DNA from: Candidatus Nitrotoga sp. SPKER
Lineage (GTDB): Bacteria; Pseudomonadota; Gammaproteobacteria; Burkholderiales; Gallionellaceae
Reading direction: 5' to 3'
DNA length: 64,000 bases
Assembly: GCA_003402285.1 (NCBI GenBank)
Contig: QFXG01000001.1
Coordinates: 124,001-188,000, forward strand
This document shows positions 28,100 through 58,257 of the stretch, piece after piece. The notes beneath the pieces were generated by a model. That model was not told where the DNA came from. It ran no database searches and worked only from the letters and a program-made list of their open reading frames with translations. Every line of letters begins with the position of its first letter. Positions within the stretch are counted from its first letter, which is position 1. Position numbers and translations under genes: made by a program.

Positions 28100-28100
<1 letters not shown>
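27552..28100 (-). CDS. hpt: Hypoxanthine-guanine phosphoribosyltransferase
   Basis: 182 residues. Salvages hypoxanthine and guanine with PRPP. The PRPP-binding motif VVDDILDAGET is at 103-113, and the C-terminal purine-contact region (DFVGIELPNRFVFGFGMD) is as expected for Hpt. Its start codon overlaps the galU stop by one base (TAATG). It follows galU and precedes mtnP on the same strand, so hypoxanthine made by the mtnP product can be reused. Confidence 0.92.
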
Positions 28101-31032
<2,932 letters not shown>

Positions 31033-31056
31033 TCAAACCTAACCTGAAAGGCAAAT

Positions 31057-32133: not shown

Positions 32134-32234
32134 AATGGAAAGTTAATTTTTTGCACACGCGGCAAATCACGCCGTTACTGTTGAATTATCGCAAGAGCGC
32201 TGAGAAATGGCAAAGGTCAATGCGCTCTCCTAAT

Positions 32235-33131: not shown

Positions 33132-33208
33132 ATTGAGCACTCAAATTTTTAATTATACTAAATAATTTCCTCCATATTTAAACGCATGATGATTTATAAG
33201 TTACCAAT

Positions 33209-33463
33209 TCAGTGAGGTTTTGGGATGGTGCGAATTGCTTTATCCAATTGCAAATGCGCTTGTTTGCGGGCTCTTTCGGATTTTATTGCCAATGCTTTTT
33301 GCACCAGTTCAAAAAAAGCGATCAAATCTTGCCGGGGATAATCATCCTGCACGCCATTATCCTGGAAAAATTCGGCAATCCAATGTGCATCCAATTCAGC
33401 GTTTCCCGCCTCCTGCAAATATTCCGTTGCAGCCATTTCGACGTACTCACTCAATTTGCGCAT
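33209..33463 (-). CDS. Conserved hypothetical protein, 84 aa
   Basis: 84 residues, helical and charged (MRKLSEYVEMAATEYLQ, then DAHWIAEFFQDNGVQDDYPRQDL). No signal peptide or membrane segment. It lies between rdgC and the ergothioneine genes on the same strand. I do not recognise a named family, and no function can be inferred. Confidence 0.65.
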   Translation of the reverse strand: MRKLSEYVEMAATEYLQEAGNAELDAHWIAEFFQDNGVQDDYPRQDLIAFFELVQKALAIKSERARKQAHLQLDKAIRTIPKPH

Positions 33464-33500
33464 TTTTTCCTCTAACCTAATCGGGGTCTATCGTAACGAT

Positions 33501-34466
33501 TTATAAAGCTCGCAGCAGGTGTATGCTGAAAAATTTATTAGCATCAGTCCAAAATTTCTCCGAATGCCAGCCTGCTTTTTTCGCCAGATCCTGAAATTGA
33601 TCAGGTCGATATTTATAGGAATTTTCTGTATGGATAGACTCCCCCGCGGCTATCCAGAATTTCTCCCCCGATATACGAATGACTTGATCAAATCGGCTAA
33701 CCAGATGCATTTCCATGCGCCCTTGCACAGGGTTGTAAAAAGCATAATGAGAGAATCCATCGGGTTGCATCTCGGCACCAAGCTCGCGCTCGATTCGTGC
33801 AAGCAAATTGAGGTTAAAAGCCTCGGTCAAACCTGTCTTATCGTTATAAGCGGCATTGAGAATTAATGGATCTTTTTTACAATCTACCCCAATCAGCATC
33901 AAACCATTGGGTCCAATTAATTTGGCTGCTTTGCGCAAAAGATGTTGCGCTTCTTCAGGTGTGTAATTGCCGATGGTAGAACCCGGGAAAAAAATGACGG
34001 GACGCAAATCAGTTGATACTAATAAAGGTAGCGCTTCTAGCTGAGTGTAATCCGCACACACGGCCAATATTTCAATCTTAGGGAACTGCGCGACCAAACG
34101 TGCTTCAGTTTGTTCTAACTGCGGTTTGCAAATATCGATCAGCACACAGGCGGCTGAAGAATCCATATGACGCATAAGCAATGGCGTTTTCACTGCACTG
34201 CCACAACCAAATTCCACTAAGGCACACGATTGACCGATGAGGCTCATCATCTCATCACTACATTGATCCAGAATGGCCGTTTCAGTACGTGTTAGATAAT
34301 ATTCAGCAATTTCACATATTTGCTCAAACAGAGCTGATCCTTGCGCATCGTAAAAATATTTAGGTGGGATTGAACGCTCTTGCTGGCGCAGACCGACGCA
34401 AACATCTAACCGAAAACTCTCAGTCTCGACAATATCTACAGGAACGTTGGGGTATTCCATTTTCAT
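33501..34466 (-). CDS. egtD: L-histidine N-alpha-methyltransferase EgtD
   Basis: 321 residues from 34466 (MKMEYPNVPVDIVET); an upstream frame to 34568 lies inside egtB and is not used. EgtD trimethylates histidine to hercynine with SAM, the first step of ergothioneine synthesis. Motifs: IPPKYFYDAQGSALFEQI, EIAEYYLTRTE, the SAM motif EFGCGSAVKTPLL and FPGSTIGNYTPEEA. Its ATG overlaps the egtB stop by one base (TAATG), so the two are coupled. Confidence 0.93.
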   Translation of the reverse strand: MKMEYPNVPVDIVETESFRLDVCVGLRQQERSIPPKYFYDAQGSALFEQICEIAEYYLTRTETAILDQCSDEMMSLIGQSCALVEFGCGSAVKTPLLMRHMDSSAACVLIDICKPQLEQTEARLVAQFPKIEILAVCADYTQLEALPLLVSTDLRPVIFFPGSTIGNYTPEEAQHLLRKAAKLIGPNGLMLIGVDCKKDPLILNAAYNDKTGLTEAFNLNLLARIERELGAEMQPDGFSHYAFYNPVQGRMEMHLVSRFDQVIRISGEKFWIAAGESIHTENSYKYRPDQFQDLAKKAGWHSEKFWTDANKFFSIHLLRAL

Positions 34467-35746
34467 TATAAATCCTCCGCTAAACGTAAACCTGAAAATA
34501 CCCAACGACTTCCAGGTGGAAAGAAATTGCGATAACTTGCCCTGATATGATCCACTGCTGTTGCGCATGATCCACCACGCAATACCATCTGGTTACACAT
34601 GAATTTGCCGTTATATTCACCCAATGCGCCGGAAAGAGAACGAAAGCCTGGATAGGGCTGATAAGGGCTTTGCGTCCACTCCCAAAGATCACCATAAAGC
34701 TGGGTTAGACTAGAACATCGAACGCCATCTGGATGAAAGCGCCCGGAATCAAGGAAATTTCCTGCTATCGGCAACTGGGCGGCGGCGAATTCCCATTCGC
34801 ACTCGGTCGGTAACCGGTTGCCCGACCACCGCGCGAAAGCATCGGCTTCATAGTAGCTTAAGTGAGCTACGGGTTCATTCAGGTCAATAAGATGCTGACC
34901 CGCCAGTCCTGTTAACAACCAGTTATCCTCTTCTTTTATCCAATACAGTGGAGCTTGCCATCCCTGCTCGTTAACAGTACGCCAGCCATCGGAGAGCCAA
35001 AGTTCGGCCCGTTGATAGCTTTTATCGTTAATAAAAGATAAATATTCTGCATTGGTGATTAGCCTTGTACCCAAGCGAAAGTCTCTGAGAAAAGTTTTAT
35101 GGCGTGGCCTTTCGTTGTCAAAAGAAAAACCTTGCCCATCATGCCCAATTTCGACAATACCGCCACCGTATTCCATCCAGCCCAATGGTGGTGGCTCTGG
35201 GCATAAAATTGGCGGCTGGCTATGATAGGCCGGCTTTAAAGGATTAATGAAAAAATTGTATTTCACATCCATCAGTAATAGCTCTTGATGCTGAATTTCA
35301 TGCTCAATGCCCAAAAGAATTCGTTCAGCAATCTCTTGCCAATTCTGCCCGGTAAAATTATCCAACATTTGATCGAGAGCGGCGTTTACGTGGCTGCGAT
35401 AGTTATAAACCTCTGCCACGGTTGGACGAGACAAGAGCCCACGTTGAGACCGGGGAAAGAAAGTACCCAACGTTTCATAATAAGAGTTAAACAGATATCC
35501 GTAAGCCTGATGAAAGACCTGATAATTTTTCGCAAAAGGCAATAAAACAAAGGTTTCAAAAAACCATGTGGTATGAGCCAAATGCCATTTGGGCGGACTG
35601 ACATCAAGCATACCTTGTATACAGTAATCTTCTTTTTCTAAAGGTACGCAGAGAGCTTCTGTACGCGTTCGCACCAATCTTAATCGCTCTCCCAACAAGT
35701 TAGGATCAAGCTTATCGAAATTATTTTTCAGGGAATTAATATTCAT
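34466..35746 (-). CDS. egtB: Ergothioneine biosynthesis protein EgtB (hercynine oxygenase)
   Basis: 426 residues. The N-terminal DinB-like helical domain provides iron ligands in KWHLAHTTWFFE and EHEIQHQELLLMD. The C-terminal formylglycine-generating-enzyme-like (FGE-sulfatase) domain contains RLPTECEWEFAA, LYGDLWEWTQSPY and VLRGGSC. EgtB joins hercynine to a thiol substrate with O2. No egtA (glutamyl-cysteine ligase homologue), egtC or egtE is near. If the partner substrate were cysteine, only a C-S lyase would then be needed; which substrate is used cannot be told from sequence. Confidence 0.93.
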   Translation of the reverse strand: MNINSLKNNFDKLDPNLLGERLRLVRTRTEALCVPLEKEDYCIQGMLDVSPPKWHLAHTTWFFETFVLLPFAKNYQVFHQAYGYLFNSYYETLGTFFPRSQRGLLSRPTVAEVYNYRSHVNAALDQMLDNFTGQNWQEIAERILLGIEHEIQHQELLLMDVKYNFFINPLKPAYHSQPPILCPEPPPLGWMEYGGGIVEIGHDGQGFSFDNERPRHKTFLRDFRLGTRLITNAEYLSFINDKSYQRAELWLSDGWRTVNEQGWQAPLYWIKEEDNWLLTGLAGQHLIDLNEPVAHLSYYEADAFARWSGNRLPTECEWEFAAAQLPIAGNFLDSGRFHPDGVRCSSLTQLYGDLWEWTQSPYQPYPGFRSLSGALGEYNGKFMCNQMVLRGGSCATAVDHIRASYRNFFPPGSRWVFSGLRLAEDL

Positions 35747-36162: not shown

Positions 36163-36299
36163 AGCGTGCCTCGCTGTGATCAATGCTCAAGTTATCCTGC
36201 GACAAATTACTTCCGATCTAAGCAATGACTGAGACTGTCGGCTCGCAAATCGAGCCGGGCATCGAGCAAATAGAGGACTATTACCTTGCTGCTGACGCC

Positions 36300-37140
36300 C
36301 TGAAGCGTGTTCGCAAAGGACAAGAACAGGTGCATTCCACCGCTTCTGAAGACAGCCAGTGCTTTTTTCGCCCAGGCGGCGCTCGACAGCGAACTGAAGA
36401 AATAAATACCTATATTGATCAGCATCGGAATCTGTATAGGGTTGAGCCAATCTGCAAAATCCTGCAGGTTGCCCCGTCTGCTTACCCAAGTATGCAGCAC
36501 GCTGTCGTCAACCGGAATTACGCAGCCGCCGGACGCAGATGGATGAACAGAACAAGATCAATATTTACCGGATATGGGAGCAGAATTTTCAGGTTTATGG
36601 CGCACGCAAGATCTGGCGGCAAATGAACTGGCAAGGCCAATGCATCGCCCGCTGCACAGTCGGACGCCTGATGCGGGATCTGGAGATTGCAGGCGTGCGT
36701 CATGGCAAGCGGTTGCGCACCACGATGCCGGATCAATCAAGGCCATGTCCGCAAGATCTGGTTCTACGACAGTTTGCAGCCAGCCGCCCGGATCAGCTGT
36801 GGGGGGCAGACTTCACCTATGTTTCCACCTGGCAGGGATGGTTATATGTCGCCTTTGTTATTGACGCCTACGCCAAACGAATCGTGGGTTGGCGAGTAAG
36901 CAGTCAAATGACGACGGACCTAATTATGGATGCACTGGGGATGCGTATAACAACGCATTAGCGGAGACGATTAACCGCCTTTATAAAGCCGAACTGATAC
37001 ACCGGAGAGCTCCGTGGAAATCCAGAGCCGCTGTTGGAGCTGGCAACCCTGGAGTGGGTGTTTTGGTTCAACCATCAGCGCTTGCTTGGCTCAATCGGCA
37101 ATATTCCACCTGTACTAGCTCAGACCTGATTTGACAGTCA
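36300..37140 (+). mobile_element. IS3-family insertion sequence, decayed
   Basis: A single broken IS3-type unit with orfA and orfB remains in the plus direction. The orfA tail LLKTASAFFAQAALDSELKK ends at 36405. The orfB frame follows with frameshifts and an internal deletion and ends at ...PPVLAQT before TGA near 37133. No clear terminal inverted repeats or target duplication could be identified, so the outer ends are approximate. It abuts the truncated cheB copy at 37190-37255. Confidence 0.8.
36402..37133 (+). pseudogene. IS3-family transposase orfB, frameshifted and internally deleted
   Basis: Four pieces of one integrase-type transposase lie in different frames: INTYIDQHRNLYRVEPIC (from 36402), MDEQNKINIYRIWEQNFQVY to LIMDAL (36539-36930, with the first catalytic Asp in WGADFTYV), then GDAYNNALAETINRLYKAEL (about 36930-37015) and finally ELATLEWVFWFNHQRLLGSI in a fourth segment. 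About 50 residues holding the second catalytic Asp (usually in HSDRGSQY) are missing. At least three frameshifts plus this deletion make it inactive. Confidence 0.85.
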
Positions 37141-37189
37141 CTTCGATCAATTGGGCAAATGTCAGATAATGTCGCGATTACTACATTTA

Positions 37190-37255
37190 ATACCCCTGCA
37201 ATACTTGTCGTACGACAGCTGAGTCGTCAACCAATAACACTTTTATTTTTTTCAT
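37190..37255 (-). pseudogene. Truncated cheB copy, N-terminal 21 codons only
   Basis: On the minus strand ATG 37255 reads [20 protein letters not shown], then GY and a stop. The first 20 residues equal the start of the intact CheB at 42796-43863, and the two DNA stretches match with few changes. The rest of the gene (response-regulator phosphorylation site and methylesterase domain) is gone, and IS3 sequence begins a short way beyond. It overlaps the end of the cheD copy by about 29 bases. Confidence 0.88.
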
Positions 37256-37775
37256 TTATTTTATTCTGCTCCTGGCTCTGATATTCCAACACCTTGCTTA
37301 CATGCTTAACCCATACATGACCGCTCCAGATATTGAAAATCACATTTCTGTGACCAATTTTACCCACATCGTGCGCGATAACGTTGAAGCCATGCAGATC
37401 AGTGAGTACTTTTGCCATCTGAACATTCTTTTTTCCGATATCCCCGCTATTCGCTTTATTAACGAAATCCGGAAACATATTACCGCCTCCAAATATCTTG
37501 ACTTCATAATCATCAATTTTCGTTTTACTGCGCTTTACTGCCTCCAAAAACATCAATATCGCCTCGTCCGCATACTTACCGTTCAGCCTGTCTGGATCTC
37601 TACGTCGCCCACCCGGTAGCATGTAATGACACATGCCACCGATTAGGCGCTTAGGGTGCCACACAGTAATAGCGACGCACGACCCCAGCACAGTGCGGAT
37701 GCTGGTCTCCGCATCGCCGAAATGGAAATCACCAGGCTGCAAAAATATCTCAAGGACAAAGTCAGGTCTTTTCAT
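37227..37775 (-). CDS. cheD: Chemoreceptor glutamine deamidase CheD, second copy
   Basis: 182 residues. CheD deamidates glutamines of methyl-accepting receptors. The catalytic residues are kept: T28 and C33 in TVLGSCVAITVWHP, and H50 in GGMCHYML. Compared with the other CheD (43882-44412) the N-terminal half is similar but the C-terminal half has diverged and carries a longer basic tail. It may still be functional even though its cheR and cheB neighbours in this block are broken. Confidence 0.85.
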   Translation of the reverse strand: MKRPDFVLEIFLQPGDFHFGDAETSIRTVLGSCVAITVWHPKRLIGGMCHYMLPGGRRRDPDRLNGKYADEAILMFLEAVKRSKTKIDDYEVKIFGGGNMFPDFVNKANSGDIGKKNVQMAKVLTDLHGFNVIAHDVGKIGHRNVIFNIWSGHVWVKHVSKVLEYQSQEQNKINEKNKSVIG

Positions 37776-38301
37776 GGCTTACAATATACCGATGGGGAGA
37801 CTAACTTTAGAGCTGCGGTATGTTGTGTATCCGTTCCATGTCATAGTGACCAGAGCGGGCTTTTTTAAGTACGCGAGTGCTAGTGTCGAATGCGATGATT
37901 TCCCAAGGCGAACGAGGTAGGCCATCAGCAAGTGTCATGGCAAGACTGTAAGGTTCTTCGCCGGTCGAGCTAGCCGCGCTCCATAATCGAAATGTTTTGC
38001 TTACTTGTACTTTGGGCAAAACTTGCTTGCTTAGAAAATCGAAGTGTTTAGGTTCTCGAAAAAAATAGGTCCCGTTGGTGGTCAGCAGGTCCAATGCAAT
38101 TTGCAGTTCTGCTGCTTCTGTATTTTGTGTAATCAGCCGAAAATAATCATCATAGCTGGTCAGGTCATGATGTTTCAGCCGTTTGGATAGACGATCTGAA
38201 ACTAATGCTTTTTTTGCGTCGGAGAGACTAATCTCGGCAGTACGATGTAACCAGGAACGGAACTGGTTAAATTCATCATCTCTCAGAGTTTCTGCATTCA
38301 T
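37776..38301 (-). pseudogene. cheR copy with internal deletion (protein methyltransferase remnant)
   Basis: The minus-strand frame from 38301 gives 164 residues and then stops. Over about 158 residues it matches intact CheR (44409-45215) with some 20 differences seen by eye, then breaks after HNIPQ. The next bases resemble the very end of cheR (SPSIY-like) out of frame, so roughly 110 codons are deleted. Within the kept part, the conserved NETYFFRE motif reads NGTYFFRE. The SAM-binding start SAASSTGEEPYS is kept but the C-terminal half is absent. Confidence 0.88.
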
Positions 38302-38447
38302 GGTTTTATTGTTTTACCGGTTGTTGTAAACGTTTGGTCTACCGGGAATAGGTAACACTGTCAGCGTAGCGGGTATCAGGATGGAGGAATTCAGGTAATG
38401 ACATTGACCTTCTTCCATCCATTCCCCACCTTGCGTGTCTTGCTTGC

Positions 38448-38987
38448 TTAAGCCAATTCTGCCGCAGCAAGTTCCGTCACGCCTGCTCCTGAAAGCCTAG
38501 CCATTTCATCCACTGACAGTACGCGGTCAGCGTTGAGTATGATTACAAACTGGCCGTTCACTTTGCCCATGCCACTGATAAAGTCAGCCCGGATCCGGGC
38601 ACCGAAACTCGGTGCTGGCTCAATTTCAGCGGCGGATATTTCCAGCACTTCTGATACCGAATCCACCACTACGCCGACATCTTGCTTTTCGTCATCCGCT
38701 TCAACTTCAATGATGACAATACAGCTGCGCCGCGTAACTTCGGATGCAGTGCGGCCAAAACGGGCCGACATGTCCACTACTGGTACCACGGCGCCACGCA
38801 GGTTGATTACGCCACGAATGAAATCCGGCATCATCGGTACCGTGGTGAGATTGCCGTATTCGATGATTTCCTTGATGCCGAGTATGCTGATGGCAAACAT
38901 CTCGCCTCCAATCAGAAAAGTGAGATATTGCCCCCTTTCCTGCTGCACGACTGCCGCATGAATTTCCTTTTTAACTAGTGCGCTCAT
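38448..38987 (-). CDS. cheW: Chemotaxis adaptor CheW, second copy
   Basis: 179 residues. CheW links receptors to the CheA kinase. The fold is two five-stranded barrels; LTFLIGGEMFAISILGIKEI and PDFIRGVINLRGAVVPVVDM are the usual signatures. It is nearly the same protein as the copy at 45360-45899, with four residue changes seen, all near the ends. About 450 bases in the middle (38482-38930) show no difference at all between the copies. The start is at MSALVKKE. Confidence 0.94.
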   Translation of the reverse strand: MSALVKKEIHAAVVQQERGQYLTFLIGGEMFAISILGIKEIIEYGNLTTVPMMPDFIRGVINLRGAVVPVVDMSARFGRTASEVTRRSCIVIIEVEADDEKQDVGVVVDSVSEVLEISAAEIEPAPSFGARIRADFISGMGKVNGQFVIILNADRVLSVDEMARLSGAGVTELAAAELA

Positions 38988-39000
38988 GGCTGTCTCCTAA

Positions 39001-41310
39001 TTAAAATCTAGTAAAATCAGCTTCATGTGGGATACTTGCAATAGGCTTGGCACCCTTTGCCTTGGTCGGGCGCGCAGCTTTGCTATTAGTAGATGCTGCA
39101 ACCCTGTTTACAGCAGCCTGACGTTGTTGGCTGCCGCTGGTATTCGACTTTACTGTAAAGAATCCCATTATTCCTTGCAGTTGATCCGCCTGACCATTCA
39201 TTTCCTCAGCGGTTGCAGCCAGCTCTTCGGATGCAGATGCATTTTGCTGAGTCATCTGATTCAACTGTCCCATGGCATTGTTGATTTGATGCACACCTGA
39301 AGATTGCTCTTCCGATGCGGCGCTGATCTCTTGCACCAGGTCGGAGGTCTTGCTAATGGAGGGCACCATTTCGTCCAACAGATTACCGGCCTTCTCCGCC
39401 ATCCCGACACTGCTGGAGGCCAGCTCGCCAATTTCCTGCGCCGCCACCTGGCTGCGCTCAGCCAGTTTGCGAACCTCCGCCGCGACCACCGCGAAACCCT
39501 TGCCATGTTCGCCCGCCCGGGCTGCTTCGATGGCAGCATTGAGCGCAAGCAAATTCGTCTGATAGGCAATGTCGTCGATAATGCTGATTTTCTTTGCGAT
39601 TTCTTTCATGGCCGACACTGTTTGCCCGACCGCCTCGCCACCCTCGGTCGCTTCTTTAGCTGCCTTGCTGGCCATACCATCAGTAACCTTGGCATTTTCG
39701 GTATTCTGGCTAATAGAAGCACTCATCTGCTCGATCGAGGCACTGGTTTCTTCCACACTCGCTGCCTGTTCACTTGCAGCTTGTGATAAAGACTGTGAAG
39801 TGGCACTAACCTGTTCTGAAGCTTGTAATAAAGCATCCGTTGAACTGATTACGTCGGTAACAATATGTGATAATTTTTCAACTACTTCGTTACTAGCCAC
39901 CTTTAACTCACCAAATGTTCCACCGTACTCCTTTTCAATAGTTTTCGTTAGATCGCCTTGAGCGAGGGCTGCAAGAACACGCAATACATCGTTCAGTCCT
40001 TCCTCACTGGTTGCCATTAATTGATTAACATCTGTGCTAATTTTAGCAAAGAAACCGGTTTTCCCTTCTTCTAAAACTCGTAAAGTAAAGTTACCATTCA
40101 CTGCACCTTCAACAATCGAACCGATCTCATTTTCGATCGCCACCTCGAGAGTACGATCATTCCATTCGACAACACTGCCAAGGCGCTCACCGTTTTTGTT
40201 CAACACCGGATTAGCCGATAACGCAAATATACGCGCGCCCACGGTAATTTGCGCCTTGTGGTTACTGTTGAAAGTAGCCAGTAGGTGCTTCTGGTGTGAC
40301 GGATTCTTGTGAAACTGGTCAATATTGGAACCGATCAATCTAGCCGCCGAGAAATTAGGCAGAACCTTGCGCATATCAGCTTCAGCATTAGACAGCATAC
40401 TTACAACAGCAGCGTTCGCGTAAATAATATTTCTATCATTGTCGGCTATCATCACATTAGTACTAACGCTATCCAATGCGATCTTAATACGCAGGTTTTC
40501 ATTGGCAATTTTTGCCGCCTCCTCTACGTTCGAACGAATATTGTCTGCCATGATTTGCATGGCTGCGAGCAGTTGGCCAGTTTCATCTTTAGAGTTTACA
40601 TTGACCTTGACATTCAGCTCACCTTTAGCTAACTGATTAGACACACTCACTGCTTCATTCAATGGATTTGTTATGCTGCGCGTGACCCAATAGGCGATAC
40701 CTGCGGCTAATCCTAAAGCAATTGTTGCCAGCGCCAGCATTAAATTGCGTGCAAAATTATAGTTTTCGGTAGCCTCCTTGGCGGTTGTCCGAACTAATTC
40801 AACTTGAAAATCGTTTAAAGTATTCAAATTAGCTTGATAAGCTTCCAGGATGGGTCGTAGTACGTTAGTCATAAATGCCCGTGACTCGTCTTTCTTCCCG
40901 TCCTTAACCATGGTTATCAAGTTTTTCTGGCTATCGATATACTTTGCGCGATCATCCAGAATATGTTGCAACATCTCCTTTCCTTTTGGCAATGCGATAA
41001 GCTTTTGTAACTTATCTACATATTCTTGAATTTTTTTCCGTGCTTCGATAATTTTATCTTCCTGCTTTAGCTGGTCATCGCGTTTATCTGTGAGCATCAT
41101 GTTTCTCATCGCGATGGCGATCTTATTGGTTTCATTCTTGATATCCGCAATCATAGCCACTTTTATATTTCTATCACTAATCACCAGATCCAACATTTCA
41201 TTAAGTTGTGAAAGCCGTGTAATAGCTATCGACGCTATTATTATTAGTAAAATCAATACCAAACCAAATCCAAATCCAAGACGCATCCCTATTTTCATGT
41301 TTTTAAACAT
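39001..41310 (-). CDS. Methyl-accepting chemotaxis protein with PAS domain
   Basis: 769 residues. TM1 at about 10-30, a four-helix-bundle periplasmic domain (about 35-185), TM2 at about 188-210, a HAMP domain to about 263, a PAS domain (about 275-395, [21 protein letters not shown]), a second HAMP-like segment (about 425-470) and a C-terminal signalling domain with the hairpin tip [20 protein letters not shown]. The C terminus DFTRF fits the loose tethering pentapeptide x-aromatic-x-x-aromatic used to bind CheR or CheB. Compared with the copy at 45912-47561 the PAS-containing part is the main difference. GGGAGG precedes the ATG. Confidence 0.92.
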
Positions 41311-42795
41311 AACCCGCCTCCCTTGTTAATTTTTAAATATAAATATGGAGCCCCATATTGATCGAGGCACCTACATTCCTTCATAAACATGCTTTTCGAT
41401 TGGCTCATTATTGAACCAACAATTGAAAATCTAAAATAAGTGTTTCTTCATTACTGCCCAATTTAAGTAACAATTTTAAAAAAATACACTTTCTATGTAC
41501 CTATAGCGGATATTTTATTTATTACTTTAATTTTCCATCAATTGGTAAAACCACCAGCTTTAGCTAGTGCATTTAAGGGTTTTAAATGCTATGAGTATGA
41601 TTACACGGCGAGGAAATATGGTTTGAGTGTATTCCGCCACGGTTCGCCACTTTTAGTGAGCGGCCGATATAACCTCAACCCACCTACTTTAGTAGGTAGC
41701 AGATGAGTTTGTTATTTGAGATTTATCGAGACAGGAACAGAAATATTAATAACAAACTGGAGTGGAAATTTTGTTTTTATTAAGCAACACATTCTGCAGT
41801 ACAGCAACCAGAATGTATCCGAAACATGCAAGTTCCTGAACACAGGGAACTGTCCGTTCCTGGCGAAATTTGCAGGTTATGCTCATGTTTCAAGCTTGCA
41901 CAGCACAGCAATCACGCCACAAATCAAGAATTCATGATCAACGTATTTGACCAATTATCCCTTTTCCTCCGATATATATGGTGGCTCTTCTAACGGTGAA
42001 ATCATGGGTTGAAATTTCTTTCAAAATTTAAGTGCGCTATAAAGTTACAAGTTATAAAGCCGTTACTGAATAAGAAATAGCGAAAGTGTGAGCAAATTTT
42101 TAATGAATTTAAGAACAGTGGAGGAATCGTGAAATTTAAAAAATTGATTGTAAAGTTACGCTATTGGGGACAGGAGTTTTTCTTTATATACCAGCAGCAT
42201 TAACAATACTTAGAGAGACTAGTCAGCTAAACCCAAAAGCTTGCCTCCATTCCAAGCAGGCTTTTATGGCTCATCCATAGTGAGAAAATTGGCATACAGA
42301 AGTGATCGGCTATGTCACGAAATTTTTTCTTGGCTCCTTGTAAATCTACCCATTATTAATGTCGCCATAGGTACCCTGTGAAACAGATAATAATTAATCG
42401 GCAGCGGATGCAAAAACTAAATATTTGCCCAAATATTCACTACAACAAAGCGATTGCCATGGGTCATGGTTTACACCCATTTTGAACAAAAATGATCTAT
42501 TGCCAAATTCGATTGATATAAATATTTCGTTCTATTTATACGACATTTAGATAGATCAAATATGCCTTCCATAACTCCTAACACGCATTACAAAATAAAT
42601 ATTAAATTTCATTTTTAGATGAGGCAGAAATCCAAGCAATATCATGCCAGCCAAACCAAAAAATCACTGTAACTCAACTATTCAGATTAATATAAATGGG
42701 TTAACGCAAATTGGATATATATAATTTTAATCGTCTACGTTCAAGCTAGATATCCATAATCTAGCATCTCAAAACTCGATACTTGTTAGCCCCGT
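41311..42795. other. 1.5-kb gene-free AT-rich stretch between the two chemotaxis blocks
   Basis: No convincing gene was found on either strand. It contains a sigma-28-like promoter facing the MCP at 41310, a 7-bp hairpin (acctact/agtaggt) at 41682-41697, an 8-bp inverted repeat (acattctg/cagaatgt) at 41789-41816 and several smaller repeats. A 73-codon frame at 41716-41937 overlaps the second of these and shows no family or ribosome binding site. Confidence 0.55.
41503..41529 (-). promoter_or_regulatory. Sigma-28-like (FliA) promoter upstream of the PAS-domain MCP
   Basis: On the minus strand TAAA (41526-41529), a 15-base spacer, then TCCGCTAT (41503-41510) match the pattern TAAA-N15-GCCGATAA at all four -35 and five of eight -10 positions. 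It lies about 190 bases before the ATG. Confidence 0.5.
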
Positions 42796-43863
42796 TTATC
42801 TTCCCAAAATAGCCCAGTGCATTTCATGCAATGGCACTATTTTTTTTGCGGCACCCATCTTGATGGCTTCCTTGGGCATACCAAATACAATACACGTGGC
42901 TTCATCCTGCGCCACCGTGGGAGCACCTGCATCCAGCATTTCTTTCAGCCCGCGTGCACCATCGTCACCCATGCCGGTCATGATGATGCCGGTAGCATTT
43001 TTTCCTGCAAATTTAGCTACCGAACGGAAAAGCACATCTACAGACGGGCGATGACGGTTAACCAATGGCCCATCCACCACTTCAACATGGTAATACGCAC
43101 CACTGCGTTTAAGCAGCATATGCTTGCCACCAGGAGCAATTAGAGCAAGACCTGGAATAACGCGATCATTATTTTTTGCCTCTCTTACTTCTATTTGGCA
43201 CAGACCGTTGAGACGTTCAGCAAATAAGGCAGTAAATTTTTCTGGCATATGCTGCACGATGACAATGCCGGGGCACACTCGCGGCAACGCTGTCAACACG
43301 GCTTCCAGAGCCTGTGTACCACCCGTCGACGTACCAATGGCAACAATGCGTTCAGTTGTTTGCGCCATAGAGTGAGCAGTAGCAGCAGAGAGAATAACAT
43401 CAGCATTAAGCTTCCCGGCCACTTGCGGTAAGGGTGTTGCTGGTCTGACCTGACGCCTGACGTTGGCCTGGGCTGCCGCCCTAACTGCCGCCACTAGATC
43501 ATTGGATGACTCCTGCAAAAAACTTTTCAACCCAATCTTGGGTTTGGTAATAATTTCCACTGCTCCAGCGGAAAGCGCTTGCATGGTGGTTTCCGCACCT
43601 TTTTCCGTGAGCGTAGAACAGATCACCACCGGTGTTGGGTGTTCGGCCATAATCTTTTTAAGGAAAGTGATACCGTCCATGCGCGGCATTTCCACGTCTA
43701 GAACGATCACATCTGGCCATTCGCGAGTCATTTTTTCCATGGCAAAAATTGGATCGGATGCCGCGCCAATTACCTGAATATCCGGTTCCTGATCCAATAC
43801 TGCCTGCAATACTTGTCGCACTACAGCTGAATCGTCGACCAATAACACTTTAATTTTTTTCAT
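42796..43863 (-). CDS. cheB: Chemotaxis protein-glutamate methylesterase CheB
   Basis: 355 residues. The N-terminal response-regulator domain has D10/D11 and phosphorylation site D56 (VIVLDVEMP). The C-terminal methylesterase has the catalytic serine S179 in GTSTGG, H205 in VQHMPE and Asp in MTGMGDD (about 300). It removes methyl groups from receptors after phosphorylation by CheA. Last gene of the complete chemotaxis operon. The same N terminus reappears at 37190-37255 as a fragment. Confidence 0.96.
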
Positions 43864-43881
43864 TTATTTATGCTCTTTAAA

Positions 43882-44412
43882 TCATGCCTGGGTTACGCCG
43901 GATTTGCGCACCCAGACATTGCCGTTATGGATGTCGAATACAATCTGCCGATGGCCAGTCCCTCCCAAATCTTCTGTTGCAACCACGAATCCGTGTGATG
44001 TAACAAGTGAGCGGGCAACAATCATATTTTTGCATGGGATGTTCATGCATGCATTGATACTATCAATGCATCCTTTAATATCGCACGGGTTCTTTTTTTT
44101 TATACCGGGGAACATGTTGCCTGCCCCGAATAATTTCACGGTATATTCTGATGGGCGGGTTTTGGCTGCCCGAATTTCCCGCGCAAACATTTGCATTGCT
44201 TCCTCTGCATAACGACCATCGAGCGAATTCGCCGAAGTGTTTTCCCGAGCAGGCAGCAGGTAGTGACACATGCCACCAATTAATCTTGTCGGATGCCACA
44301 TGGTAATAGATACACAGGATCCCAGAAGGGTACGGATGCGAGCATTCCTTTCTCCGAAATAAAAATCTCCCGGCTGTAAAAATACTTCAATGACATTCCC
44401 AGACCGCTTCAT
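43882..44412 (-). CDS. cheD: Chemoreceptor glutamine deamidase CheD
   Basis: 176 residues, normal length. The catalytic set T28, C33 and H50 lies in TLLGSCVSITMWHP and GGMCHYLLP. ATGA overlap with cheR upstream and 18 bases to cheB downstream. CheD deamidates receptor glutamines and can be bound by CheY-type phosphatases in other bacteria. A second copy is at 37227-37775. Confidence 0.93.
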   Translation of the reverse strand: MKRSGNVIEVFLQPGDFYFGERNARIRTLLGSCVSITMWHPTRLIGGMCHYLLPARENTSANSLDGRYAEEAMQMFAREIRAAKTRPSEYTVKLFGAGNMFPGIKKKNPCDIKGCIDSINACMNIPCKNMIVARSLVTSHGFVVATEDLGGTGHRQIVFDIHNGNVWVRKSGVTQA

Positions 44413-45215
44413 GGCTTGCTGTATATAGACGGAGATACCAATTTCAGGCCATCGGTGATTCCATTGAGGCTTTCAGAATGGCTGACAATAAAATAACCGC
44501 CAGGCTTTAAAAATGGCAACATGCGTGCAACTACTTGGCGTTTTGTATCCATGTCGAAATAAATCATGACATTACGCAAAAAAATAACGTCAAACTCGCC
44601 CAGCTTCGGTAGTGTTGTATTCAGATTGATTTGCATAAATTGCATGCGACTGCGCAGACTGCGCTCAATCATGAAAGTACCTTCTTGGGAGCCAGTACCC
44701 TTCAGGCAATGCTTAGAGAGCAGCGGCTGCGGAATGTTGTGCGCCCGTTCCATGTCATAGTGGCCCGAGCGGGCTTTTTCGAGAACGCGGGTGCTGATGT
44801 CGGATGCGACGATTTCCCAAGGGATGCTAGGCAAACCATCGGCAAGTGTCATGGCGAGGCTGTATGGTTCTTCACCGGAGGAGCTGGCCGCACTCCATAA
44901 ACGAAATGTTTTGCCTGCTTGCGCTTTGGGCAAAATTTTCCCTCGCAGAAAATCAAAATGTTTGGGTTCGCGAAAAAAATAGGTTTCGTTGGTGGTGAGT
45001 AGATCCAGGGCAATCTGTAATTCTGCTGCTTCAGTATTCTGAGTAATCAGCCGGAAATAATCACCGTAGCTGGTCAAATCATAGTGCTTAAGCCGCTTGG
45101 ACAGCCGTCCTGAGACCAACGCTTTTTTTGCGTCGGAGAGATTAATCCCGGCAGTACGATGTAACCAGCTACGAAATTGGTTAAATTCATCATCTCTTAG
45201 CGTGGTGGTATACAT
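44409..45215 (-). CDS. cheR: Chemotaxis protein methyltransferase CheR
   Basis: 268 residues from 45215 (MYTTTLRDDEFNQF); a longer frame from 45287 has no counterpart in the other copy. SAM-dependent methylation of receptor glutamates. Helical N-terminal domain, then NETYFFREPKHF, the SAM-binding SAASSSGEEPYS, and FDVIFLRNVMIYFD near the C terminus. Complete, unlike the copy at 37776-38301. Its stop overlaps the cheD start (ATGA). Confidence 0.94.
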   Translation of the reverse strand: MYTTTLRDDEFNQFRSWLHRTAGINLSDAKKALVSGRLSKRLKHYDLTSYGDYFRLITQNTEAAELQIALDLLTTNETYFFREPKHFDFLRGKILPKAQAGKTFRLWSAASSSGEEPYSLAMTLADGLPSIPWEIVASDISTRVLEKARSGHYDMERAHNIPQPLLSKHCLKGTGSQEGTFMIERSLRSRMQFMQINLNTTLPKLGEFDVIFLRNVMIYFDMDTKRQVVARMLPFLKPGGYFIVSHSESLNGITDGLKLVSPSIYSKP

Positions 45216-45359
45216 AGATTTATGTCTGCCCCTTATTAGTAATCTTTGATCAATCAGGCAAAGCTCAAACGCCAGGATGAAAAGCATTAAGATGGAGGAA
45301 CTTTGGTAAATTACGCCAATCTTCTCTCATCCTGCGCCTACCATGCAGGTTCTGCATGC

Positions 45360-45899
45360 TTAAGCCAATTCTGCCGCAACAAATTCCGTCACACCTGCTC
45401 CTGAAAGCCTAGCCATTTCATCCACTGACAGTACGCGGTCAGCGTTGAGTATGATTACAAACTGGCCGTTCACTTTGCCCATGCCACTGATAAAGTCAGC
45501 CCGGATCCGGGCACCGAAACTCGGTGCTGGCTCAATTTCAGCGGCGGATATTTCCAGCACTTCTGATACCGAATCCACCACTACGCCGACATCTTGCTTT
45601 TCGTCATCCGCTTCAACTTCAATGATGACAATACAGCTGCGCCGCGTAACTTCGGATGCAGTGCGGCCAAAACGGGCCGACATGTCCACTACTGGTACCA
45701 CGGCGCCACGCAGGTTGATTACGCCACGAATGAAATCCGGCATCATCGGTACCGTGGTGAGATTGCCGTATTCGATGATTTCCTTGATGCCGAGTATGCT
45801 GATGGCAAACATCTCGCCTCCAATCAGAAAAGTGAGATATTGTCCCCTTTCCTGCTGCATGACTGCCGCATGAATTTCCTTCTTAACTAGTGCGCCCAT
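45360..45899 (-). CDS. cheW: Chemotaxis adaptor CheW
   Basis: 179 residues, starting MGALVKKEIHAAV. Couples MCPs to CheA. Four residues differ from the copy at 38448-38987, and the centre of the gene is identical in DNA. It lies 12 bases after the MCP stop in the complete operon and about 145 bases before cheR. Confidence 0.95.
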   Translation of the reverse strand: MGALVKKEIHAAVMQQERGQYLTFLIGGEMFAISILGIKEIIEYGNLTTVPMMPDFIRGVINLRGAVVPVVDMSARFGRTASEVTRRSCIVIIEVEADDEKQDVGVVVDSVSEVLEISAAEIEPAPSFGARIRADFISGMGKVNGQFVIILNADRVLSVDEMARLSGAGVTEFVAAELA

Positions 45900-45911
45900 G
45901 GCTGTCTCCTA

Positions 45912-47561
45912 TTAAAATCGGGCAAATTCAGCTTCATTCGGGATTCCGGCAAGAGCGTGCATGGCAGCTTTTGCTTTTGCCTTGACCGGGCGTGCAGCCT
46001 TGTTATTAGATGCGGCCACCTGGTTTACAGCAGCCTGACGTTGCTGGCTGCCAGCACCATTACTTTCGACCTTAAAGAACCCCATCGTCTGTTGGAGTTG
46101 ATCCGCCTGATTGCTCATGTCCTCAGCGGTTGCAGCCAGCTCTTCGGATGCAGATGCATTTTGCTGGGTGATCTGGCTCAATTGACTCATGGCCGTATTG
46201 ATCTGGCCCACGCCTGAAGATTGCTCTTCCGATGCGGCGCTGATCTCTTGCACCAGATCGGAGGTCTTGCTGATGGAGGGCACCATTTCGTCCAACAATT
46301 TGCCGGCCTTCTCCGCCATCCCGACGCTACTGGAAGCCAGCTCACCAATTTCCTGCGCCGCCACCTGGCTGCGTTCAGCCAGTTTGCGAACCTCCGCCGC
46401 GACCACCGCGAAACCCTTGCCATGTTCGCCCGCCCGGGCTGCTTCGATGGCAGCATTGAGCGCAAGCAAATTCGTCTGGTAAGCAATGTCGTCGATAATG
46501 CTGATTTTCTTTGCGATTTCCTTCATGGCCGATACTGTTTGTTGCACAGACTCACCACCCTCGGTCGCTTCTTTGGCTGCCTTGCTGGCCATACCATCAG
46601 TAATCTTGGCATTTTCGGTATTTTGGTTGATGGAAGCGCTCATCTGCTCAATCGAGGCACTGGTTTCTTCCACACTGGCTGCTTGTTCGCTGGTGGCTTG
46701 ACTAATGGATTGGGCGGTCGCACTTACCTCTTCAGAAGCGCTTGAGAGACTGTCCGAGGCGCTGCGGACTTCGGTGACAACATGTGACAATTTGCCCACC
46801 ATGTTTTGCATGGCGGCGAGTAGTTGACCGGTTTCATCTTTAGAACTCACCTCAATATTTGCAGTCAGATTTCCTTCAGCCAACTGGTTTGATACATTCA
46901 CGGCGATATTCAAAGGCCCCGTAATACTGCGCGTGACCCAGAAGGCGATACCAGCTGCCATTGTCAAGGCAATTCCTACCAGTACCAACATTACGTTGCG
47001 TGCCATGTTATAGCTTTCGGTGGCTTCCTTCACGGCTGTCGCCACTAATTCAATTTGAAAGTCGTTAAATTTATTCAAGCTGGCTTGATAGGTGCCCAAG
47101 ATAGGACGTAGTACATTAGTCAAATACGCCCGCGCTTCATCCTTACTCCCTTCATTAATAATATTTATCAAGGCCTTATAGCCATCGATGTATTTAGTTC
47201 TAGCATCTAGAACTTGCTGCAGTATTTCCTTTCCTTTGGGCAAGACAATTATCTTTTGCAATTTCTCAACATGTTCTGCAATTTTATTTTTCGATTCAAG
47301 AATTTTTCCTTCTTGTTTTTTCATGTCATCGCGACTGTCAGTGAGCATCATGTTTCTTAACGCAATGGCAATGGCAGTGGTTTCGCTCTTGATATCCGTC
47401 ACCAAACCCATTTTCACATAACGATCATTAACGACAAGATTCAGCATGTCGTTTTGCTGCGAAAGCCGCGAAATAGCTAAGGTCGCAATGATTAACAGTA
47501 ATATCACCACCAAGCCAAAACCAAATCCCAAACGCATACCTATTTTCATATTTTTAAACAT
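45912..47561 (-). CDS. Methyl-accepting chemotaxis protein, four-helix-bundle sensor
   Basis: 549 residues. TM1 (about 10-30), a four-helix-bundle sensor (35-185), TM2 (about 188-210), HAMP (to about 263), then directly the signalling domain with [20 protein letters not shown]. It lacks the PAS domain of the related receptor at 39001-41310; the two share N-terminal halves and are almost the same in the signalling tip. The C terminus EFARF fits the x-aromatic-x-x-aromatic tether for CheR/CheB. Confidence 0.93.
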
Positions 47562-47619: not shown

Positions 47620-49818
47620 TTAATGTGTAAGTTGCCTGGTTGAAACATGCTGCGATTCACGATTTACGGCCTGCTGAACCAACGATGGCACATCCAAAAT
47701 CAACGCCACTTCACCGCTACCGAGTATGGTGGAGCCACTGATTCCGCGCAGGGTACTGAATATCTTGCCTAGTGGTTTGATTACAGTCTGGAATTCGCCC
47801 ATTAGCTCATCTACCACCAGCCCCGCTTTTTGACCTGCACAGCTCACCACGACCACGTTTGCGCGACGTGCCCCATTACCCTCAATTTCAAAATGCTCAC
47901 GCAACATGACAAAAGGCAATACTTCGCCGCGCAAATTAAGATAGCTGCGTTCGCCTGTCGCCTGGCGGTCATTTTCTGTCAGTTCAATACATTCGTGCAC
48001 CATGTCCAGCGGCACTATATAGCTGGATTTTCCGACACCCACCAAAAAGCCATCAATAATGGCGAGCGTAAGCGGCAAACGAATACTGACTGTAGTACCT
48101 TGACCTACCGCACTGTCTAGACTCACAGTGCCGCGCAGTGCAGCGATGTTACGTTTGACCACATCCATCCCCACGCCTCGACCTGAAAGATTGGTTATGG
48201 CTTCTGCAGTGGAGAAACCTGCCTCAAAAATCATGTTATAAATTTCCTGATCAGGAGGCGTTACGTTAGGGGCAATCAGGCCGCGATCTCTAGCCTTTTG
48301 TAAAATTCGATCACGGTTAAGACCACCTCCATCATCGACAATCTCAATTACGATACTGCCCGAATCATGGAAAGCATTAAGCCGCAGAGTGCCTTTTTCT
48401 GGCTTACCTTTTTCTTGTCTAATTGATGCCGACTCAATGCCATGGTCCATGGCATTACGCACCAGATGCATGAGTGGATCTCCAATTTTTTCTACCACGG
48501 TCTTATCTAGCTCAGTATCTGCACCGGTAATTACCAGTTCGATATCCTTGCCAAGTTCACGGCCCACATCGCGTACCACGCGCTGAAAGCGATTGAAAGT
48601 TTCACCTATTGGAACCATACGCAGGCGCAATGCACCGTCGCGGATTTCCTCCACTAGTCCCGACATCACAGAAGCAGCTTCCTGTAATGGATTATCTTTC
48701 ACGCGTTGAGCAAGTAAACTGACGCCCGCTCCGGCTATGACTAGTTCACCCACCATATTGATCAATTCGTCCAATTTGTCAGCCTGTACACGAATGTAAC
48801 GACTTTCCTTGTTTTTACTATCCTTGGATTGGGTTTGCTTATCCAAAGCAGCTTGCACGACCTCATGTTCAACCGAGCGTTGCTCCACCAAAATTTCGCC
48901 CAGAGGTGTTGTCGAGCCATCAGGACGGGCGCTGGTTTGCTGTTCACTTAATCCAGATTCAAGCTCTTGTTGCGTAAGCGCTCCTGTCGCCACCAGGATT
49001 TCACCCAAGCGTGTTTCACTTTCTGGCAATGAGCGAATTAATTCAATATATTCAGTGAGTTTACTATGCGGTGGTAAAATATGAACAAGGCTACCTTCTC
49101 GTGCAAATTCAAATACTCCGGCAATAGTGGCTTTATCGGCATCTGATTTAAAATCAATTTCAAAACCGAGGTAGCACGATTCCGCATCCATTTCATCGGC
49201 AAGCGGCAGGGCATCGAACATGGTGGTGATAGAAACAATTTCTCCAAGAGTCGATAAATAGCGAATAAATGAAAGTGGATCCATTCCATCTCTCATTACG
49301 TTCTGGCCGAAACGCAAAGAGATGTGCCAATTATCTGTCTCTACAAAACCACCCCCGCTGGATTGGAATGAAGTCTCAGTTTCTACCTGAACAGCATGGC
49401 TGACCTTGGAGCTATCCTGACTAGCTTGATAAGCCTGCAACCGAATACGCAAACCATTTTCTCGGGCAATCGCTTCTGCATCCAATTGCCCACCCTGAGC
49501 GGCAACTACGTTAACCAGATGCAACATATGATCGCCGCTTTCGAGTAATACCGCGATCAGATTGGCTTCAATAACAACGTCCCCATCGCGTACTCGATCA
49601 AGCACATCTTCAACAATATGAGTGAAACTGACGATAGGATCCAACCCGAACAAACCAGCCGATCCCTTGATGGTATGCGCAGCGCGGAATATGGCACCAA
49701 TTGTGTCAGCATCATTCGGATCAGCTTCAAGCCGTAACAACGCATCCTCCATATCTTGCAAAAGTTCGCGTGCTTCAGCGATATAAGTTTGCAGTGCTTG
49801 ATCAAGATCTAAACTCAT
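47620..49818 (-). CDS. cheA: Chemotaxis histidine kinase CheA
   Basis: 732 residues. P1 Hpt domain with phosphorylated H48 in AAHTIKGSAGLFG, a linker/P2-like region (about 150-330), P3 dimerisation, P4 kinase with N box HLVRNAMDHGIE and G boxes DDGGGL and GRGVGMDVV, and a C-terminal CheW-like P5. It phosphorylates CheY and CheB. Positioned after the STAS gene and before the MCP in the complete operon. One kinase gene serves both receptor blocks here, since none exists in the second block. Confidence 0.96.
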   Translation of the reverse strand: MSLDLDQALQTYIAEARELLQDMEDALLRLEADPNDADTIGAIFRAAHTIKGSAGLFGLDPIVSFTHIVEDVLDRVRDGDVVIEANLIAVLLESGDHMLHLVNVVAAQGGQLDAEAIARENGLRIRLQAYQASQDSSKVSHAVQVETETSFQSSGGGFVETDNWHISLRFGQNVMRDGMDPLSFIRYLSTLGEIVSITTMFDALPLADEMDAESCYLGFEIDFKSDADKATIAGVFEFAREGSLVHILPPHSKLTEYIELIRSLPESETRLGEILVATGALTQQELESGLSEQQTSARPDGSTTPLGEILVEQRSVEHEVVQAALDKQTQSKDSKNKESRYIRVQADKLDELINMVGELVIAGAGVSLLAQRVKDNPLQEAASVMSGLVEEIRDGALRLRMVPIGETFNRFQRVVRDVGRELGKDIELVITGADTELDKTVVEKIGDPLMHLVRNAMDHGIESASIRQEKGKPEKGTLRLNAFHDSGSIVIEIVDDGGGLNRDRILQKARDRGLIAPNVTPPDQEIYNMIFEAGFSTAEAITNLSGRGVGMDVVKRNIAALRGTVSLDSAVGQGTTVSIRLPLTLAIIDGFLVGVGKSSYIVPLDMVHECIELTENDRQATGERSYLNLRGEVLPFVMLREHFEIEGNGARRANVVVVSCAGQKAGLVVDELMGEFQTVIKPLGKIFSTLRGISGSTILGSGEVALILDVPSLVQQAVNRESQHVSTRQLTH

Positions 49819-50186: not shown

Positions 50187-50555
50187 CTATGGCAATATCA
50201 ATTTGGCCACGGCGGTAAGCATTTGTGCCGGCTGGAACGGTTTAACCACCCAAGCCTTAGCACCCGCTGCCTGGCCTTCTTGTTTTTTTCCTTCCTGAGA
50301 TTCAGTGGTGAGCATAATGATTGGCGTGAACTTATAATTTGGCAGTTTTTTGACTTCCTTGACGAAGGTAATCCCATCCATGTTGGGCATATTCACATCA
50401 CTGATAATGAGGTGGATTTTTTGCCCATTAAGTTTTGTCAACGCATCCTTGCCATCACACCCCTCAATCACGTCATAACCCGCCCCTTTTAATGCAATGC
50501 TGACGACCTGCCTTACACTTGCAGAATCATCAACTATCAATATTGCTTTACCCAT
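50187..50555 (-). CDS. cheY: Single-domain response regulator CheY
   Basis: 122 residues from 50555 (MGKAILIVDDSASVRQ) with the Shine-Dalgarno AGGAGGAAGC. Acidic pocket D9/D10, phosphorylation site D53 in ISDVNMP, T83 in MLTTESQ and K105 in VVKPF, all as in CheY. It binds the flagellar motor when phosphorylated. The longer frame upstream is not used. Second gene of the operon, eight bases after the MCP gene. Confidence 0.93.
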   Translation of the reverse strand: MGKAILIVDDSASVRQVVSIALKGAGYDVIEGCDGKDALTKLNGQKIHLIISDVNMPNMDGITFVKEVKKLPNYKFTPIIMLTTESQEGKKQEGQAAGAKAWVVKPFQPAQMLTAVAKLILP

Positions 50556-50563
50556 GCTTCCTC

Positions 50564-51793
50564 CTAAAAAAATGTAATTTCTTGTTTCGCGGCTACGCTG
50601 GATTGCCCCCCGCGATGATTGTGCACTTGCTCTTGGGTAGCATAGAGCGTCTCCATCTCCGCCAACCATGACTTGATATCGATATGCTTGATCGGGACGG
50701 ACGCTGCCCGATCTTTTTTGTATTGCTGCAAATGCTGATGCAGTTTTTCCATGTTGTTGCGCACATGAACCAATATCTGGCTGACGCGATCCTGGAATTG
50801 AAGGGAAACAAGTACGTCAGATAATTCATCGCGAATACCTGCACTTTCCTGTTGTAACAGTTCCGCTGAATCTGACAAATGCGAAGTGACGTTATTAAAG
50901 CTTTGCAGAACCTGCTGAATAATCAATTCAGAGCTTGCGACCGATTTGGAATCATGTTCAGAAGTGCTTTCAGCGATCTTGAATACGCTGGTGATGGCGT
51001 TACTGATAATATCAACGGTACCTGACATTTTTTTACCAGTCTCACTGGAAAGACTGGATAGTTTGCGTACTTCGTCCGCTACCACAGCGAATCCACGGCC
51101 TGCTTCTCCAGCCCGCGCAGCTTCGATTGCAGCATTTAAAGCGAGCAAGTTTGTTTGAGCGGCAATCTCCGCTACCTTAACGGCCATCGCTCTCAGCTCG
51201 CCAGTGTAATCATTGAGGCTTCTAACTTGTTCCAACATATCATTGCGGCTATGCTGCGCGTCCCTGATAGTGTCAATTACACTGGTCAGCGATGACTCAC
51301 TTTGTGTCATTACCGCCAATGCACCACCCTCGGCATTACCTGCCAGGTTACCAGCAGCACTTTGGGAAGCACGTACTGATGCTTCCAATTTTGCATTAAT
51401 ACCGACAAAACGATTGGCCAAGTCCATGATGGCTGTTTCGGTTTGATTACGAGTAGTTTCGACTTGCCTGGACCAAATAGGCACCACCTCCGTACATACC
51501 TCTTCCAAGCCACCTACACCGGCATTCTCAAGCTCGATTTCAAATTTTGCTTTGGCATTAACCATCTCTTGTGCCACGGCTAACTTAAGCAAGGTGCGAT
51601 GATGACGAGTCCCCCACTCTGCAGCAGCTGCTGATATTCCTATAAGAACGACAGCAGACACTATGCTGGCCCAGCCAATTCCACCCAAAATAAGCAGCAT
51701 AGAGGCACCGACAACAGCAACTCCTAAAGCAATTCCCCAACAGAATATTGCTGTAGTTTTTTGTGCTGTCGAATTAATTTTTTTCACTGCCAT
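50564..51793 (-). CDS. Methyl-accepting chemotaxis protein with short membrane anchor, no periplasmic domain
   Basis: 409 residues. Two adjacent hydrophobic helices (about 15-40 and 42-60) with almost no loop, then a cytoplasmic coiled coil and signalling hairpin ([22 protein letters not shown]). With no periplasmic sensor it probably senses cytoplasmic or membrane cues. The C terminus EITFF does not fit the aromatic tether pattern seen in the other two receptors. First gene of the complete operon, preceded by a sigma-28-type promoter. Confidence 0.88.
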
Positions 51794-52028: not shown

Positions 52029-52146
52029 CGTGTATGTTTTCTGTGGGGGCGTTATTTTTCTGCAGGAAATTGGAAGCTGATTACTACGCTATTTCATATA
52101 GTGCAACTAAAACTGTCAACGTAGTGAATTGAAAGTACAGTAGTTT

Positions 52147-53346: not shown

Positions 53347-53352
53347 GGCTTG

Positions 53353-55266: not shown

Positions 55267-55424
55267 ATAATTCCTTGCCACACTTTACGTGTTTAAATTT
55301 ATCGTATGCATTCAATCCAGCATGAAAAGTTATACATAACCACTATTTCTTACTAACCTGGATATTTACATAACGTTTTACAAATTATCGGCATCCCAAA
55401 AAATTTCTTTAATTAAGCACGTTA

Positions 55425-56336: not shown

Positions 56337-56426
56337 TATCTGTATTTCAATGAATCTAAAGTTCTACATAAGATAGATAGTTGATACAACACAAGAGGAT
56401 GTTCTTAATGTTTATAGAGATATTCA

Positions 56427-57551: not shown

Positions 57552-57565
57552 GGCATTAGCCCTTC

Positions 57566-58252: not shown

Positions 58253-58257
58253 TCCAC

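Follow-up and report, generated by a model that had tools for sequence, protein, structure and literature searches.

The stretch analysed here, hereafter the window, comprises 64,000 nucleotides (nt) of Candidatus Nitrotoga sp. SPKER (contig QFXG01000001.1, positions 124,001 to 188,000), a member of a genus of nitrite oxidisers, and carries two blocks of chemotaxis (che) genes. Blocks A (37190-41310) and B (42796-47561) lie head-to-tail on the minus strand and have the gene order MCP-cheW-cheR-cheD-cheB in common, MCP being a methyl-accepting chemotaxis protein (table 1). Directly upstream of block B comes cheA, followed by genes for a STAS protein, cheY and a soluble MCP. Pfam matches in block A are to CheD, CheR (only positions 1-95 of the 195 of its S-adenosylmethionine (SAM) domain), CheW and MCP, and in block B to CheB, CheD, full-length CheR and MCP. 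A repeat finder paired the two blocks at spacings of about 6.25-6.92 kb, with four 300-nt families of 74-95% identity. Open reading frames (ORFs), Pfam matches and repeats thus bear out an earlier note on this DNA, which had described two blocks of the same order and strand at these coordinates. Absent from that note was a difference between the receptors: MCP-A (769 amino acids, aa) has a 222-residue PAS-HAMP insert that MCP-B (549 aa) does not have.

Nucleotide identity between the blocks is 98.7% for cheW, 81.1% for cheR, 73.5% for the sensory half of the MCP and 54.7% for cheD. Synonymous substitutions per synonymous site (dS) amount to 0.023 in cheW, 0.95 in cheR and 1.0-1.4 in windows of the MCP N-terminal part, and are saturated in cheD. 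In 100-column windows, identity over the tip of the receptor (39603-39403) was 95-98%; the tail had 71%, most of cheW 100%, the part past cheW 45-84% and the start of cheB 88%. Such uneven values do not fit one recent duplication. The earlier note had favoured a simple segmental duplication followed by loss, and the like order and strand as well as the near-identity of cheW speak for it. However, the divergence of cheD, of the MCP sensory half and of cheR, the presence of MCP-A in a second Nitrotoga genome (G006) and the mosaic identity itself refute this form of it, and we regard a recent duplication followed by decay as very improbable. The two copies are each other's closest relatives for cheW, but not for the N-terminal half of the MCP, cheD or cheR.

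Gene histories were compared in trees of hand-chosen ORFs from 19 annotated loci, picked from lists of 80 and 12 loci; of the genus, the trees hold only the genomes that have the che locus. Approximately unbiased (AU) tests used 11 sequences, namely copies A and B of the window and of G006 and those of seven other genus genomes, with G018 and the outgroups excluded. For cheR, the cheR-B of the window was trimmed by 24 codons to the start found in its relatives in trees, identities and AU tests alike; the cheR constraint that set the window's A copy outside all others is trivial on an unrooted tree and uninformative. The sensory half of MCP-A is 93.4% identical in nucleotides to that of G006 A; the two A copies are sisters, and a pairing of A with B in the window was rejected (difference in log likelihood, delta lnL, 302; p-AU 1.6e-41). 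Between these orthologues the ratio of nonsynonymous to synonymous substitution (dN/dS) is 0.108, in keeping with the earlier suggestion that the receptor was kept while redundant enzymes decay. In the tree of the receptor tip (MCP-A residues 560-700), the A copies join the B copies of the window and G006 instead of standing apart from them (support 0.981), as after an ancestral conversion.

The cheW copies, on the other hand, group within each genome, and forcing A with A across species was rejected (delta lnL 138-144; p-AU 7e-6 and 1e-4). In G006 the two copies are 100% identical (dS 0), and between species the dS of cheW is 0.45-0.49, against the low value seen within the window. In a run test with 10,000 permutations, the longest run shared by the window's blocks spanned 89 polymorphic columns (440 bp, inside cheW) against a permutation maximum of 16, and that of G006 spanned 419 columns against 108. 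The controls gave 20 against 17 for window A and G006 A, a slight excess located at the conserved receptor tip, and 23 against 36 for window B and G006 B; only runs much longer than the control excess were used. The homogenised stretch of G006 extends over cheR (99.8%) and most of cheD (97.0%). With within-genome grouping in cheW, orthology in the MCP sensory half and homogenised silent sites, as expected of gene conversion, the near-identity of cheW is best explained by later conversion with the B copy, in both genomes. Strong constraint, or a recent duplication of cheW only, could also make the copies alike without conversion, and here one may point to a dN/dS of 0.045 between the window and G006 and to the window's longest identical run lying wholly within cheW. 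Nevertheless, synonymous sites are alike too, which protein constraint does not yield, the run in G006 continues through cheR, and to assume that cheW by itself was placed in the same slot in each genome is less simple, all of which leaves such an origin of cheW highly unlikely. Apart from the two blocks, an MCP core cut by a contig edge (G000:C6:6-668) lies at a contig end of the same genome and is 78% identical in amino acids to MCP-A residues 506-725.

The cheD-A gene has 90.1% nucleotide identity to the sole cheD of another genus member, G001, whereas the remaining genus copies in the comparison reach 52-60%. The sensory half of MCP-A (93% to G006) and cheD-A (90% to G001) match another genome far better than they match block B, and cheW does not; the better match to another species that the earlier note had named as counter-evidence does not extend through the whole block. 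The cheD-A type is present in 2 of the 19 genus genomes, the window and G001; the window's copy reads on for 13 residues past the end of the G001 gene, and dN/dS between them is 0.173. Among 300 genomes of the order, sampled from a larger group and searched at an E limit of 1e-45, the best identity outside the window genome was only 57%, so that no donor of this type can be named. The single block of G001 (MCP of B type, second cheD type, intact cheB) is possibly the deletion product of a former tandem pair, although cheR-A and the cheR of G001 are not near relatives (81.7%; p-AU 0.0195, Shimodaira-Hasegawa (SH) test not significant at 0.125). CheD-B (43882-44412) has a Cys-rich insert, CDIKGCIDSINACMNIPC, which may bind a metal. 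In an alignment of 12 CheDs the insert occurs also in G003, G006 (both copies) and G009, a Cys-rich stretch stands there in L056 and L092, and cheD-A, G001, G038, L057 and L076 are devoid of it.

As the earlier note had seen, cheR-A is internally deleted: relative to cheR-B, 277 bp are missing at a single site (between 37812 and 37811), and the frame is shifted. The match to cheR-B extends over 163 codons, the gene's final codons persist out of frame, and the SAM-binding domain is incomplete. Compared in pairs with four other copies, cheR-A has a dN/dS of 0.07-0.10, only a little above the 0.03-0.06 of four between-species pairs of intact cheR, which suggests that most of its divergence built up under constraint and that the deletion looks recent. 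The truncation of cheB-A also stands, with a corrected count: not 21 codons but 20 that match cheB-B, followed by two others and a stop. Its end lies about 50 bp from what had been called an IS3 element. The sequence is a broken, IS3-like remnant, with HTH_21 (6.1e-15) and rve (2.8e-13) in one frame (36539-36961) and only about half of rve present; the two neighbouring frames gave no Pfam match, and partial copies of the remnant occur elsewhere in the genome. Window positions 22000-34500 correspond to 1.689-1.702 Mb in G006 and 0.668-0.683 Mb in G007, with the che loci at about 1.483-1.496 Mb and 0.476-0.487 Mb, a separation of some 180-190 kb in either genome, while window positions 52100-64000 adjoin the che locus in both. 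It follows that cheB-A is cut at a rearrangement breakpoint, a result based on G006 and G007, which are each in one contig, the other seven genomes searched having contig breaks. G006 also has no cheB-A, but differently, since homology of its block A ends just before the cheB start codon.

Full-length MCP-A (94% aa identity) was found in one of the 18 other genus genomes, G006, that is, in 2 of 19 with the window, and the CheW of the che locus (at least 86% aa identity) in 10 of the 19, window included, several of the genus genomes being incomplete. The tandem order of the window, with block A behind block B, recurs in G006. The spacers between cheB-B and MCP-A of the two genomes are homologous, with 83.5% identity over 1,357 aligned nt and 87.3% over 157, and Rfam gave 0 matches to the spacer at the gathering threshold. 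Just upstream of MCP-A in G006 lies a decayed cheA 3' end, scoring 100-109 against a maximum of 38-45 in 500 shuffles. No cheA- or cheY-like ORF of at least 150 aa is listed within 37190-42795, so that the earlier statement that both genes occur only upstream of block B holds for ORFs of that size; it fails for the decayed cheA end, clear in G006 and borderline in the window. The origin of block A as a copy of the che operon is upheld by its gene order and by the cheA remnant of G006. With tandem order, homologous spacer and receptor common to G006, and the cheA remnant upstream of the receptor there, block A looks like an old partial operon copy, from the cheA end onward, that predates the split of the two species. 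An assembly artefact is barely credible: the 440-bp identical run does exceed most short reads, but the present order of these direct repeats would be the sole linear path that uses each unique segment once, and the one-contig G006 has the identical tandem order. Part of the spacer (41518-41710) matches dispersed pieces at seven places in G001, three in G003 and fewer in G006, G012 and G015, which resemble a small repeat family.

The insert of MCP-A matched the Aer2 PAS-HAMP structure 3vol over residues 272-483 (212 residues; E 1e-70) and the Aer2 PAS structures 4hi4 (2.4e-39) and 6ceq (1.9e-15). His334 (in FHKNP) and Trp383 (in GSVVEW) are conserved and align with the haem-ligand His and the Trp of Aer2, for which we assumed the number (283) and the role of the distal Trp and located H234 by counting back from it. 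According to passages of a 2026 review, Aer2 binds b-type haem via H234 and drives O2 responses (PMC13401364). Aer2-type modules are widespread in the order, occurring in 62 of 300 genomes at 1e-60, and rare in the genus. At 0.001, four of the 19 genus genomes have any match, namely the window, G006, G018 and G013, the match of G013 being weak and restricted to the HAMP part. An Aer2-type receptor occupies the main operon slot in two Gallionellaceae metagenome-assembled genomes (MAGs; L076, L084). These features suggest that MCP-A is most likely a constrained oxygen or redox receptor sharing the CheA, CheR and CheB of block B.

We conclude that block A is probably left over from an old tandem duplication of part of the che operon, with a mosaic ancestry and with the extra receptor kept. 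The copy would have run from the 3' end of cheA to at least the 5' end of cheB and most likely arose before the window's species and G006 diverged. In each genome cheW was homogenised between the tandem copies and the receptor sensory half left distinct, presumably through recombination of the direct repeats by gene conversion, which may have reached the receptor tip too. Among the window's other A genes, cheD is a deeply divergent allele, cheR is without its end because of the deletion, and cheB is cut off at the breakpoint. MCP-A would bind haem, sense O2 or redox state and enter the array to which the upstream CheA belongs, relying chiefly on CheR-B, CheB-B and CheY; CheW-A would be interchangeable with CheW-B and add to CheW dosage, and CheD-A may still deamidate receptors.

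Several results weigh against this reading. The age of block A rests on one comparison, because only one other genome carries it, and the window's own cheA trace (about 41385-41450) is borderline (47 against a shuffle maximum of 46; 39 against 37). Conversion of the tip is less firm than that of cheW, since A groups with A in the whole signalling half (1.000) and, inside the tip, still does so at 0.665. Haem binding and O2 sensing by MCP-A are predictions; no sigma-28-like promoter above chance was found upstream of it (of a possible 12, the top-scoring site reached 9 in the window and 10 in G006, and 100 shuffles of the window's upstream stretch had top scores of 8-11). Moreover, CheR-B is not the sole candidate partner of MCP-A, as another CheR-like match (34%) lies on contig C17 of the same genome, with CheW-like matches on C14 and C17. 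The pairing of cheR-A with cheR-B was rejected (p-AU 0.0008), and FastTree placed cheR-A beside G003, G007 and G015 (0.974), a position for which replacement or transfer would account no less well than old duplication or paralogy. Finally, window/G006 dS is low for MCP-A (0.20-0.34), cheR-B (0.28) and cheD-B (0.23) and higher for cheA (0.70), cheB (0.50), MCP-B (0.48) and cheW, and the 93% identity of MCP-A to G006 is slightly above the 87-91% of the flanking regions, so that exchange within the genus is possible.

Some of these points would suit the import of a whole che block from another Nitrotoga lineage, set down beside the native one and later overwritten only in cheW and the tip. The closeness of cheD-A to G001 rather than to cheD-B, the placement of cheR-A apart from cheR-B, the dS of MCP-A below that of cheA and cheB and the restriction of full-length MCP-A to two genomes would all agree with it. 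Import accounts less well for the tandem place and spacer common to G006 with the cheA 3' end upstream, and an outgroup-rooted tree puts the MCP-A sensory half inside the Nitrotoga receptors, above G001, though with only 0.761. There is also no single donor among the genomes compared, a grouping of cheR-A with G001 being disfavoured by the AU but not by the SH test. We therefore consider import unlikely, and retain the old tandem copy.

It is a tentative further possibility, which we hold to be rather doubtful, that selection and not only chance recombination keeps the array-contact parts (CheW and, less clearly, the signalling tip) alike across the tandem copies, with divergence, exchange or loss open to the sensory half and the adaptation enzymes. 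The cheW pattern was seen in two genomes, and plain repeat-driven conversion is compatible with it as well.

Table 1. Features of the two che blocks and their surroundings in the window.
Feature	Position	Strand	Basis or remark
Broken IS3-family-like transposase remnant, at the rearranged end of block A	36200..37143 (ends approximate)	+	HTH_21, partial rve
cheB-A remnant	37190..37255	-	20 codons as in cheB-B, then GY and stop; 67-nt repeat, 93%
cheD-A, 182 aa, frame intact, divergent allele common to G001	37227..37775	-	Pfam CheD, 9.8e-25
cheR-A, truncated by frameshifting 277-bp deletion, half of SAM domain gone	37807..38301	-	Pfam, alignment
cheW-A	38448..38987	-	98.7% nt identity to cheW-B; 440-bp matching run at 38483-38922
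MCP-A, 769 aa, four-helix bundle (4HB) - HAMP - PAS - HAMP_2 - MCP signal	39001..41310	-	G006 orthologue, 94% aa identity
Aer2-type module of MCP-A (residues 272-483), a predicted haem-PAS domain with HAMP	39862..40497	-	3vol and 4hi4 matches; His334, Trp383
Spacer between cheB-B and MCP-A, homologue of G006 spacer	41311..42795		nt alignment
cheB-B, intact	42796..43863	-	Pfam
cheD-B, intact, Cys-rich insert	43882..44412	-	Pfam, alignment
cheR-B, intact, likely start about 24 codons inside listed ORF	44409..45287	-	ORFs of most relatives have 268 aa
cheW-B	45360..45899	-	nt comparison
MCP-B, 549 aa, without PAS insert	45912..47561	-	Pfam
cheA, upstream of block B	47620..49818	-	Pfam

The cheY ORF as listed (50187-50669, 160 aa) overlaps the soluble MCP gene. 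In six of the seven genus relatives that show it, the matching ORF has 122 aa (160 in G007), which makes it likely that the gene really starts some 38 codons further in. A plasmid search with the 12-kb region gave only short matches (78-81%) in three records.

Block B has the order of the beta/gammaproteobacterial che operon cheY-cheA-mcp-cheW-cheR-cheD-cheB, as in Sulfuricella sp. T08 and Gallionellaceae MAGs. This order was found in the genus and in L053, L057, L076, L084 and L092, some loci with an extra gene or a gap between cheW and cheR. In five genus genomes (L044, L045, L046, L047 and L048) an extra MCP of 519-533 aa stands between these two genes, that of L044 with a start that appears PAS-like by eye. 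The che locus of G018 (L050) is seemingly decayed: cheW is short, cheD is spread over two frames, and neither cheA nor an MCP of the block type was found in that stretch. Unlike the standard operon, the window adds a second, partial tandem block of mosaic ancestry. Among open-licence papers, judged by title or opening of the abstract, those listed for Nitrotoga chemotaxis and for gene conversion, tandem duplication or concerted evolution in chemotaxis or chemoreceptors included nothing on this locus.

MCP-A resembles Aer2 (McpB/TlpG) of Pseudomonas aeruginosa in its PAS-HAMP module, haem His and Trp, but differs in having a periplasmic-type four-helix bundle and one HAMP ahead of the PAS domain. 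A membrane-bound Aer2 has reportedly been described in Leptospira. That of P. aeruginosa has, according to parts of the review cited above, three N-terminal HAMPs and is predicted to be cytoplasmic (PMC13401364). Paralogous receptors with shared signalling halves and differing sensory halves are also found in Campylobacter jejuni, where, as stated in sections of one paper, Tlp2, Tlp3 and Tlp4 have identical signalling domains and divergent sensory domains (PMC9769880). The window differs from this case in that cheW is homogenised inside a tandem operon copy and the receptor tip is near-identical, not identical.

In this locus one operon copy holds three gene histories, namely orthologous descent (MCP-A), homogenisation within the genome (cheW) and a divergent allele (cheD), which gene order alone would hide. 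From the sequence of MCP-A one would further expect a nitrite oxidiser to have a receptor for oxygen, which not all members of the genus carry. If selection does keep the array-contact parts alike, tandem copies of this kind would provide a route for adding a new sense, here putatively for oxygen, to an existing array.

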